Of a stretch of DNA of 60,263 nucleotides, positions 1-29,731 are shown one piece after another; position 1 is the stretch's first letter; every line of letters starts with the position of its first letter. The DNA lies in contig JACRGJ010000073.1 of assembly GCA_016212425.1 (NCBI GenBank), positions 1 to 60,263 on the forward strand, given 5' to 3'. The notes under the pieces are model-generated. The model searched no databases, was not told the origin of the DNA, and was given only the letters and a program-made list of their open reading frames with translations. Source of the DNA: Micrococcales bacterium (GTDB lineage: Bacteria; Actinomycetota; Actinomycetes; Actinomycetales; Microbacteriaceae). The position numbers were made by a program, and so were the translations under genes.

Positions 1-267
1 GCCCTCTCCAGTCACGGCGGCCTGCACGGCGAGGTGGCCGCCGAGCCCGCGCCCGACGAGGATGGGCGGCGCGGGGCAGGCCTCGATCGCCTCGGCGATC
101 CCCTCGACGGCGGGTCCGACCCGGAACGGGGTGCCGGCGCGCGCGCCGTGCCCGGGCAGCGGAGGCGCGCGGACCTCGTGCCGCGCGTCCCGGAGGATCC
201 CCGCCACCGCGACCCACTCGCCGGGGGAGCCGCCGAACCCGTGCACGAGCACGACGGGGGCGGCCAT
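1..267 (-). CDS. Alpha/beta hydrolase, partial (C-terminus outside window)
   Basis: The first 89 codons of a minus-strand gene that runs off the window edge with no stop. The N-terminus begins MAAPVVLVHGFGGSPGEW, the beta-strand plus HGFGG oxyanion-hole motif of alpha/beta hydrolases. The turn that normally carries the nucleophile (G-x-S-x-G) reads ILVGRGLGGHLAVQ near residues 74-84, so the expected serine is a glycine. The protein may therefore be a non-hydrolytic member or use another residue. The ATG at 267 lies 6 nt after a minus-strand TAGCAT hexamer (274-279), so the mRNA is probably leaderless. It is divergent from the SDR gene at 373. The fold is clear; substrate unknown. Confidence 0.75.
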   Translation of the reverse strand, partial: MAAPVVLVHGFGGSPGEWVAVAGILRDARHEVRAPPLPGHGARAGTPFRVGPAVEGIAEAIEACPAPPILVGRGLGGHLAVQAAVTGEG

Positions 268-307
268 GCCGCGATGCTACGGCCACGGCGATCGGCCGGG
301 GCCCGGC

Positions 308-319
308 TAGCCTGAAGCC
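308..319 (+). promoter_or_regulatory. -10 element of leaderless transcript for leader ORF and SDR gene
   Basis: TAGCCT at 308-313 followed by six bases (GAAGCC) and then GTG at 320. The same 15-base string, TAGCCTGAAGCCGTG, occurs upstream of dapA at 28748-28762, where the GTG is the dapA start. Transcription should begin at or next to the GTG. Confidence 0.6.
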
Positions 320-376
320 GTGCCTGCCCCCGCCCCGCCGATCCGCACGAGCCCGACGCCCGGGACGGCGCGGTGA
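320..376 (+). CDS. Leaderless 18-residue leader ORF coupled to the SDR gene
   Basis: GTG at 320 opens an 18-codon frame, MPAPAPPIRTSPTPGTAR, ending in TGA at 374-376. The stop overlaps the GTG start (373-375) of the SDR gene in a GTGA arrangement typical of translational coupling. The start is 6 nt from a -10-like TAGCCT, so the transcript probably starts on this GTG. The peptide is rich in Pro, Ala and Thr and matches no family I know. The frame itself is seen directly; its translation is inferred. Confidence 0.45.
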   Translation: MPAPAPPIRTSPTPGTAR

Positions 377-23402: not shown

Positions 23403-23882
23403 CTACCGGGCACCCAGATCCTTGCGGTACCAGTCGGTCGCGTTGGGGTTGTCGTTGTAGGGCTCGATCCGGGCGTAGCCGAGGCGGGCGTACAACGCAC
23501 CGGCCGCTTCGAGCACACGGTTCGTGTCCAGCACCAGCTCCGTCGCCCCGAGCTCGCGCGCCCGGCGTTCGAGCTCCTCCAGCAGCGCCCGCCCGTGACC
23601 GCCGCCCCGCGCCTCGGGTCGCACCCACAGGTGCTTCACCTCGTACCGGACGGCGGGAGGGGTGACCTCCAGCCGCCGGATGCCGGCGCAGCCGCGGGGC
23701 TCGCCGTCGGCGTCGAGCACGAGGAAGACCCCGTCCACGAACGCCTCGCCGGCCGGCAGCACCGCGCGGTAGCGTCCCAGCTCGATGGGGAAGGAGCCGG
23801 TCCGCTCCGCGAAGTAGTCCTCGAGCAGGCGCCGGGCATCGGGCGCGTCCGGCCGCGCGGCGCGGAAGCGGCGGGCGGACAC
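23403..23882 (-). CDS. GNAT family N-acetyltransferase
   Basis: A 159-residue acetyltransferase. The acetyl-CoA loop is VRPEARGGGHGRALLEELE (motif A), and motif B contains AAGALYARLGYARIEPY. The acceptor is unknown. The GTG at 23882 lies 6 nt from a minus-strand TAGGCT that overlaps the dapB -10 on the other strand, so both start codons are only 22 bp apart and both mRNAs are predicted leaderless. It is convergent with the phosphatase gene. Confidence 0.88.
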   Translation of the reverse strand: MSARRFRAARPDAPDARRLLEDYFAERTGSFPIELGRYRAVLPAGEAFVDGVFLVLDADGEPRGCAGIRRLEVTPPAVRYEVKHLWVRPEARGGGHGRALLEELERRARELGATELVLDTNRVLEAAGALYARLGYARIEPYNDNPNATDWYRKDLGAR

Positions 23883-23888
23883 GCCCCG

Positions 23889-23898
23889 AGCCTAGGCT
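23889..23898. promoter_or_regulatory. Palindromic shared -10 element for GNAT gene and dapB
   Basis: AGCCTAGGCT is a perfect 10-bp palindrome. Read forward, TAGGCT (23893-23898) is followed by 6 nt and the dapB TTG. Read in reverse, TAGGCT (23894-23889) is followed by 6 nt and the GNAT GTG at 23882. The two -10 hexamers overlap by two bases. Confidence 0.65.
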
Positions 23899-23904
23899 TG
23901 CCCC

Positions 23905-24633
23905 TTGGTCACCCGGGTCGCCGTCGTCGGAGCGACCGGGCGGATGGGGCGCCTCGCGCTGGATCTGATCGGCGATGCCCCCGACCTCGAGGTCGCGGCG
24001 ACGCTCGACTCGCGGACCCCGCTCGAGGCGATCCAGGGCAGCGACCTGGTGCTCGACGTCAGGGCGCCGGCGGCCTCGCCCGGCATCGTCGACGCGGCAC
24101 TCGAGCGCGGCATCCCGGCCCTCGTGGGCACCTCCGGCTGGAGCGCCGAGCGGCTCGCGACCCTCGAGCAGCGCCTGCGCGAGCTGCCCGACCTCGGGGT
24201 GATCGTCGTGCCGAATTTCTCCATCGGCTCGGTGCTCGCCACCCGGTGCGCCGAGATCGCCGCCACGTACTTCGACTCCGCCGAGATCGTCGAGGCGCAT
24301 CACGCGGGCAAGGTCGACTCGCCCTCCGGAACCGCGATCCGCACCGCCGAGCGGATGGCCGCGGCGCGGCGCGAGCTCGGTCCCGTCGCGGCGCCGCACG
24401 CCGACCAGCGCGCCCGCGGCCAGCAGGTGGCCTCGATCCCGGTGCACAGTCTCCGGCTCGCCGGGGTCGAGGCCCGGCAGGAGGTGATCTTCGGCGGCAC
24501 AGGGGAGACCCTCAGGCTCACCCACGACACGTACTCCTCCCGCGCCTACGAGGCCGGGATGCTGCTCGCGCTGCGGGCCGCCCCCGGCAATCACGGACTG
24601 CTCGTCGGGCTCGACGCGCTCCTGACGCGATGA
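23905..24633 (+). CDS. dapB: 4-hydroxy-tetrahydrodipicolinate reductase
   Basis: A 242-residue enzyme of the lysine/diaminopimelate pathway. It reduces HTPA with NAD(P)H. The nucleotide motif is VAVVGATGRMGRLAL (residues 5-19). The substrate-binding catalytic block is EAHHAGKVDSPSGTA, with FSIGSVLA upstream. Start is TTG at 23905, 6 nt after TAGGCT; no other start in frame fits the conserved N-terminus. It overlaps the next gene by 4 nt (ATGA). dapA follows about 4 kb away and dapF about 18 kb away. Confidence 0.95.
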   Translation: MVTRVAVVGATGRMGRLALDLIGDAPDLEVAATLDSRTPLEAIQGSDLVLDVRAPAASPGIVDAALERGIPALVGTSGWSAERLATLEQRLRELPDLGVIVVPNFSIGSVLATRCAEIAATYFDSAEIVEAHHAGKVDSPSGTAIRTAERMAAARRELGPVAAPHADQRARGQQVASIPVHSLRLAGVEARQEVIFGGTGETLRLTHDTYSSRAYEAGMLLALRAAPGNHGLLVGLDALLTR

Positions 24634-28718: not shown

Positions 28719-28759
28719 AGCGGGACCGAGGGGCGCACGGGCCCCGGTAGCCTGAAGCC

Positions 28760-29731
28760 GTGGAGCAGAATCCGTTCGGTCAGGTGCTCGTCGCGCTGGT
28801 GACCCCCTTCACCCCCGACGGCGAGGCGGACTGGTCCGACGTCGAGAAGCTCATCGACGCGGTGATCACCCAGGGCGCCGACGGCATCGTCGTCACGGGC
28901 ACGACAGGGGAGACCAGCACGCTCACCGACCCCGAGAAGGTGCGGCTGGTCGAAGTGGCGAAGGATGTCGCCGCGGGCCGCGCGAAGGTGGTCACCGGAG
29001 GCGGGTCCAACGAGACCGCGCACGCGATCGAGCTCTACCGCAAGAGCGAGAAGGCCGGCGCGGACGGCATCATGATCGTGACGCCGTACTACAACAAGCC
29101 GACGCAGGCGGGCATCCTGACGCACTTCCGGATGGTGGCCGACGCCACCGACCTGCCGGTGATCCTCTACGACATCCCCGGCCGGACCGGGGTGCCCATC
29201 CGCTACGAGACGATCCTGCGCGCGGCGAAGCACCCGAACATCCTGGCCGTGAAGGATGCCAAGGGCGACCTGTCGGAGGTCAGCCGCGTGCTCAATCAGA
29301 CCGACCTGATCTACTTCGCCGGCGACGACGCGATGGTGCTCCCGACGATGGCGATCGGCGGATCCGGTGTCATCAGCGTCACCGCGAACATCACCGCCAC
29401 TCCCTACCGCACCATGGTCGACGCGGTGAACGCGAACGACCTCCGCACCGCCACCGCCGCCCACCAGTCGCTCGAGCCGCTGGTGCGGGCGACCATGACC
29501 CACGTTCCCGGCACCGTGGCGGCGAAGTACATCCTGCACGGCCTCGGCCGCATCTCCAGCCCCCGTGTCCGGTTGCCCCTGGTGGGTCCGGAGGAGGCGG
29601 AGGCCGCGCTGATCGAGGACGAACTGGCCCTGGTCCGGGATGTGCCCGGTGCCGACTTCGGGAACTTCCGACCCGACCGGAACGCCGCGGCGGGCGGAGC
29701 CCTGCCGAAGGTCGCCGGCACAACCCGCTGA
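28760..29731 (+). CDS. dapA: 4-hydroxy-tetrahydrodipicolinate synthase
   Basis: A 323-residue aldolase condensing pyruvate with aspartate semialdehyde, the first step specific to lysine/diaminopimelate. GTTGETSTL is the family signature (about residues 46-54), the general base lies in ILYDIPGRTG, and the Schiff-base lysine is in LAVKDAKGD. GTG at 28760 is 6 nt after TAGCCT, giving a leaderless mRNA. RNase J begins 6 nt after the stop with its own GAGG site, as often seen in Actinobacteria. Confidence 0.97.
   Translation: MEQNPFGQVLVALVTPFTPDGEADWSDVEKLIDAVITQGADGIVVTGTTGETSTLTDPEKVRLVEVAKDVAAGRAKVVTGGGSNETAHAIELYRKSEKAGADGIMIVTPYYNKPTQAGILTHFRMVADATDLPVILYDIPGRTGVPIRYETILRAAKHPNILAVKDAKGDLSEVSRVLNQTDLIYFAGDDAMVLPTMAIGGSGVISVTANITATPYRTMVDAVNANDLRTATAAHQSLEPLVRATMTHVPGTVAAKYILHGLGRISSPRVRLPLVGPEEAEAALIEDELALVRDVPGADFGNFRPDRNAAAGGALPKVAGTTR

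Follow-up and report, generated by a model that had tools for sequence, protein, structure and literature searches.

Can one short palindrome supply the -10 element of two divergent genes, and do so at a distance that would leave both mRNAs without a leader? The question is raised by the interval between a GNAT-family N-acetyltransferase gene and dapB in the window, that is, the whole 60,263-nucleotide stretch of a Microbacteriaceae genome that was analysed. The features concerned are:

23403..23882, minus strand: GNAT-family N-acetyltransferase gene, GTG start (Pfam Acetyltransf_1, E = 2.2e-15)
23905..24633, plus strand: dapB, encoding 4-hydroxy-tetrahydrodipicolinate reductase, TTG start (TIGR00036, Pfam DapB_N/DapB_C)
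23880..23907, no strand: the whole 28-bp module, two opposing start codons flanking one predicted shared -10
23889..23898, no strand: palindrome AGCCTAGGCT, with two -10 hexamers overlapping in it
23893..23898, plus strand: predicted -10 TAGGCT of dapB, 6 nt before the TTG, without a G at -14
23889..23894, minus strand: predicted -10 TAGGCT of the GNAT gene, 6 nt before the GTG

Geometry of the site and predicted transcription starts

The dapB product scores 149 bits against TIGR00036 (cut-off 122) and is the single dapB match found by a search of the source genome; the GNAT protein has no NCBIfam model above cut-off in the profile search. The preliminary description was right about the palindrome, which is perfect and carries one TAGGCT per strand at 23889-23898, and about the spacing, with the GTG (23880-23882, minus strand) and the TTG (23905-23907, plus strand) each 6 nt from its own hexamer. 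The 22 bp that it gave between the two starts are the bases lying between the codons, and the distance between the first bases of the codons (23905-23882) is 23 bp. The two hexamers have T23893-A23894 in common, so that -10-like elements overlap on opposite strands in the manner of a shared -10 bidirectional promoter. A Shine-Dalgarno-like tetramer (GGAG or GAGG) is absent at -14 to -5 from dapB and the GNAT gene alike, as expected of leaderless genes, and both carry TANNNT some 12 bp upstream of the start codon, the mark of TA-led genes, which in Actinobacteria are taken as leaderless (PMC3160421; this and the other papers cited are drawn on in excerpt). An ATG or GTG start, usual but not strictly defining for leaderless genes, is found at the GNAT gene (GTG) and not at dapB (TTG).

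Promoter activity and start sites are read here from the DNA. The principal sigma factor (SigA polymerase) would recognise TAGGCT on either strand and, since the hexamers share one TA step, RNA polymerase would open the same DNA in one orientation at a time, towards GNAT on the left or towards dapB on the right. With initiation 7 nt past each hexamer, transcripts would begin on the start codon or a few nt from it, and the resulting mRNAs would be leaderless or nearly so in both directions. For the GNAT arm, the predicted start reads C(-1) G(+1) T(+2), which fits the start-site preference of M. tuberculosis (PMC3898074). On the dapB arm, pyrimidines fill positions 23901-23905 ahead of and at the TTG of the plus strand, which counts against this arm given that purines make up 85% of M. 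tuberculosis start sites (PMC3898074). An mRNA with a complete UUG has to begin on a pyrimidine within 23901-23905 or further upstream, which makes a dapB leader of 1-4 nt no less plausible than a leaderless message. For E. coli, ATG is also said to be required for leaderless translation (PMC3898074), and non-AUG starts are described as inefficient (PMC3616915). A base error at the dapB TTG is possible, as the genome assembly is in 134 contigs.

The decamer by itself is unremarkable and says little: allowing up to one mismatch it has one match in the window, and at least one match occurs in 46 of 100 shuffles. It is present once in the 2.56-Mb genome, which rules it out as a repeated genomic element. 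Its position relative to the starts, however, is not chance, since among 200,000 shuffles of the 22 intergenic bases a fraction of only 9.5e-5 had TANNNT 6 or 7 nt ahead of both starts. The same signal is enriched throughout the window, where TANNNT-N6-RTG is found 16 times against 3.2 expected (about fivefold; none of 100 shuffles reaches 16), and where a scan of spacers 0-20 gives 16 sites at spacer 6 and between 0 and 4 at each of the others. Over 365 kb (the window plus L002-L072) the scan gives 142 sites at spacer 6, 61 at spacer 7 and 10-38 elsewhere, a result that is not independent of the pair survey below because the loci are mostly dapB loci, some of them copies. With TTG starts allowed, 17 window ORFs of at least 80 codons, some of which may not be genes, carry the signal at spacer 6 or 7, and dapB is the sole TTG among them.

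Two further observations were made in the window. The 15-mer TAGCCTGAAGCCGTG, a leaderless-type start, is present twice (308-322 and 28748-28762), with different sequences behind the two copies. Near the window edge, divergent leaderless-type starts lie at 265-279 (minus strand) and 308-322 (plus strand); these are probably not a gene pair, because the plus-strand ORF has 18 codons only (the minus-strand ORF has 89).

GNAT/dapB pairs in relatives

A search with the GNAT protein at E <= 1e-15 matched 244 of 398 genomes of the family and left 154 without a match. Among the matches listed, 100 GNAT start regions were examined, and all 100 have a divergent dapB within 600 bp. These 100 loci, together with other loci (20, 17, and 27 of 29 further GNAT-search loci), gave 164 pairs, of which 16 were removed as duplicates in intergenic sequence, leaving 148 distinct pairs. 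The count leaves out L001 and L142, which are copies of the window, and L112-L141, which contain other gene pairs, as well as L005, L006, L034 and L161 (about 1.3 kb between the genes), and L020 and L163 (GNAT and dapB on one strand). The named relatives matched with dapB are Microbacteriaceae, judged by genus. The divergent layout, though common, is not found everywhere: among the 71 dapB loci L002-L072, 30 lack any GNAT match in the stretch examined. In L005, L006 and L034 (the last being Schumannella soli) the leaderless-type -10 is, as judged by eye, kept at both genes across the approximately 1.3 kb that separates them.

TANNNT stands 5-8 nt before both starts in 144 of the 148 distinct pairs, nearly all from relatives. 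This figure partly counts what is possible, since GNAT starts were selected for the signal from several candidate codons: the start taken was the third aligned codon in 95 pairs and another codon in the rest, a freedom of choice that comes with the variable GNAT N-terminus. For dapB, the start taken is the aligned codon in 140 of the 144. Three of the four exceptions lack TANNNT near the aligned dapB start (L154, L208, L216) and one lacks it at GNAT (L054); in L154, TANNNT-N6-ATG was seen by eye nine codons further upstream. At other spacers between 0 and 25 the motif is rare in the 92-pair subset in which this was counted (one dapB case and two GNAT cases). No GGAG or GAGG occurs at -14 to -5 of either gene in any of the 144 pairs, the window included. 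Such tetramers do lie within 7 nt of the start in 17 dapB and 15 GNAT genes, the window's not among them by eye, and we judge these too close to act as Shine-Dalgarno sequences.

The leaderless reading of both genes is well supported, in view of the fivefold enrichment and the double signal in the pairs; it is strong for the GNAT arm and probable for the dapB arm. The proposal of one symmetric -10 for both genes stands in that the element can serve both; a dapB start codon at +1 is its least sure part, because the 144 dapB starts comprise 106 ATG, 37 GTG and a single TTG, that of the window. The window's dapB promoter also departs from its relatives at -14, where 123 of the 144 have a G (TG at -15/-14 in 65) and the palindrome imposes a C. 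In relatives, GNAT and dapB would be transcribed divergently, both as leaderless mRNAs, mostly from separate -10 boxes at varying distance.

This distance was expressed as a step, counted from the T of the left-hand box to that of the right-hand one, so that a shared TA is -1 and a 2-bp gap is 3. The shared TA is found in 4 of the 144 pairs (the window, L023 with ATCCTAGGAT, L211 and L245) and the 2-bp gap in 8; the remaining steps range from 7 to 315, with 18 pairs above 60, and unshared boxes are 2 to 314 bp apart. The palindrome thus sits at the short end of a wide range. That 2-bp-gap boxes are commoner than shared ones is a sign against any preference for sharing at this locus. The G at -14 of dapB is present in all eight pairs with the 2-bp gap and missing in three of the four with the shared form, the window included.

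A dapB tree of 93 rows, built by a quick method and lacking L245, places six of the seven 2-bp-gap pairs present in it in one group. The three shared-TA rows require three changes on this tree, in which support near the window is weak, and repeated origin of the shared form appears likely. It most likely arose by intergenic shortening, although the tree gives this no backing, having no supported group that joins the window with the 2-bp-gap pairs. Loss of 4 bp between the TAG repeats of a AGCCTAGATAGGCT-like ancestor (as in L032, L033, L037 and L171) is plausible in sequence and is kept as an idea, although the tree does not put the window in that group. L037, whose boxes lie 2 bp apart, is from Homoserinibacter gongjuensis NBRC 108755.

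The shared-TA pattern in other genomes

The pattern CAY-N6-ANNNTANNNT-N6-RTG was searched in the 398 family genomes with the reversed pattern as control. It gave 854 sites against 263 for the control and matched 338 genomes against 172, with more sites than control sites in 288 genomes and fewer in 35; the window's own site is not among the 854 because of its TTG start. Counted in one set of 100 genomes, the shared TA was found 236 times against 69 for the control, and directly abutting boxes 11 times against 4. Abutting boxes were considered as a preferred form and rejected, as without one repeat (7 of the 11, in one genome) the count is 4 against 4, with no excess. A 30-bp palindromic repeat, in which CACGGGCCCAG and its complement stand on either side of a TATA centre, occurs seven times in the genome G104. 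Searched in 246 genomes from other families of the class, the shared-TA pattern gives 433 sites against 230, with a match in 181 genomes. Enrichment differs between these families, being strong in f32 (28 versus 2), f45 (34 versus 4) and f27 (13 versus 0) and absent in f37 (14 versus 14) and f51 (21 versus 22).

Among 30 loci viewed, 19 are flanked on each side by an ORF of 80 codons or more, and seven of the 19 represent one pair repeated within a single genus. Doubt attaches to L114 and L116, since L115, which has the same site, runs into a stop after 28 codons. Gene pairs named by Pfam include:

L118: P5C reductase (proC) / cation efflux protein
L120: HhH-GPD glycosylase / protein without a Pfam match, around a perfect AGCCTAGGCT
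L112: RecG-type helicase / Cons_hypoth95
L127: seryl-tRNA synthetase / diacylglycerol kinase
L141: RecO / GNAT

We take the glycosylase of L120 to be MutY and the Cons_hypoth95 protein of L112 to be RsmD. The sequence ATCCTAGGAT with 6+6 spacing occurs again in G300 and G365 (one genus) and in G263 and G167 (another), and the flanking proteins look alike at their N-termini in L118, L134 and L135, the loci of three of these four genomes. At L121-L124, L126, L128 and L129, in seven genomes of one genus, a TA is shared between the leaderless-type starts of one pair of proteins, of 196-198 and 379-396 residues.

Alternatives, known systems and significance

The preliminary description went on to propose that two polymerases excluding each other would couple dapB output to the acetyltransferase. 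Steric exclusion itself is physically expected at a shared -10 and is accepted for such promoters; strong activation of one arm can repress the other (PMC12825309), and polymerase competition has been proposed by the authors of the csoR-cueA study for partly overlapping -10 elements (PMC5057107). A switch in which exclusion is strong enough for transcription of GNAT to lower dapB and vice versa, and is under selection, is nevertheless quite unlikely. As the boxes range from sharing a TA to lying 314 bp apart, any coupling of GNAT and dapB is not conserved, and this variable spacing argues against selection for exclusion. Moreover, all five E. coli bidirectional promoters tested were too weak at the basal level to compete, and exclusion mattered there only with one arm strongly activated (PMC12825309). 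The sequence analysis brought up no functional link of this GNAT to lysine/DAP synthesis. The coupling claim is left unsupported, and expression of GNAT and dapB is probably near-independent at ordinary activity.

It could instead be that only the GNAT arm works as drawn and that dapB is transcribed mainly from an upstream start inside the GNAT coding region, giving a leadered mRNA with a TTG start. It is the dapB arm that has the TTG, the pyrimidine at +1 and no G at -14, which speaks for this; the TTG, however, has no GGAG or GAGG at -14 to -5, and a -10 stands 6-8 nt before dapB in the 144 pairs and in one more of the 148, which makes a leadered dapB unlikely. A perfect 10-bp palindrome between divergent genes may also bring to mind an operator that binds a dimeric regulator and covers both start regions by coincidence. 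We consider this highly improbable and leave it as unsupported: the palindrome has one copy in the genome, its symmetry follows directly from two shared -10 boxes, and most relatives keep TANNNT at each start and not the palindrome. The reading that we favour, and hold to be quite likely, is a compact bidirectional housekeeping promoter, near-leaderless both ways, in the shortest form of a layout frequent among relatives.

Each element of this reading is already known singly: bidirectional promoters, leaderless genes of the TA-led type and a divergent pair whose mRNAs are both leaderless. The site resembles the shared -10 bidirectional promoters of Warman, Grainger and colleagues (PMC12825309, PMC10268837), often found between divergent protein genes, in its opposite-strand overlapping -10 elements and its predicted start distance: common distances in those promoters are 10, 18 and 23 bp, with 18 the commonest (PMC12825309), and the 23 bp found here is a figure taken from start codons rather than mapped start sites. 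Unlike the case here, those papers seem not to treat leaderless mRNAs: the word 'leaderless' has no hit in PMC10268837, and PMC12825309 is not among the papers listed as dealing with both subjects. With TA-led genes of Actinobacteria (PMC3160421; M. tuberculosis map, PMC3898074) the site shares TANNNT about 12 bp upstream and the lack of a Shine-Dalgarno-like tetramer, but its dapB starts with TTG where theirs usually start with ATG or GTG. A pair of divergent leaderless neighbours is known in M. tuberculosis, where the start sites of prpD and of its divergent regulator Rv1129c were both mapped at the start codons (Cortes et al. 2013, PMC3898074); those of the window are predicted. In csoR-cueA of Bradyrhizobium liaoningense the -10 elements also overlap in part and the csoR mRNA is leaderless by RACE, but cueA starts 42 nt upstream of its start codon and the CsoR repressor regulates the pair (PMC5057107). 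The overlapping promoters of lysG/lysE in M. tuberculosis include a second lysE promoter that gives a leaderless transcript (PMC5648196). The earlier statement that no case is known in which both products are leaderless does not hold against prpD/Rv1129c, the double layout in the surveyed pairs and the enrichment of the shared-TA form; two leaderless genes on one shared -10 were not found in the top-ranked open-licence literature.

The layout looks like the most compact form of an arrangement common in relatives and not a one-off regulatory switch. Doubtful, and offered tentatively, is the broader notion of a recurrent class in leaderless-rich actinobacteria: 28-bp modules in which one shared TA would be the core for two genes and both start codons would be +1, selected at housekeeping pairs such as proC with cation efflux, seryl-tRNA synthetase with diacylglycerol kinase and recO with GNAT, where the orientation of the polymerase would set the protein ratio. 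Because the relatives are many natural replicates with differing box separations, the effect of -10 sharing on expression is directly testable. If start-site mapping confirms the predictions, 28 bp would fix the transcription and translation starts of two genes, and the site would let orientation choice by RNA polymerase and leaderless UUG initiation be tested in a minimal natural setting; its interest is mainly as a pointer to the family-wide shared-TA set.
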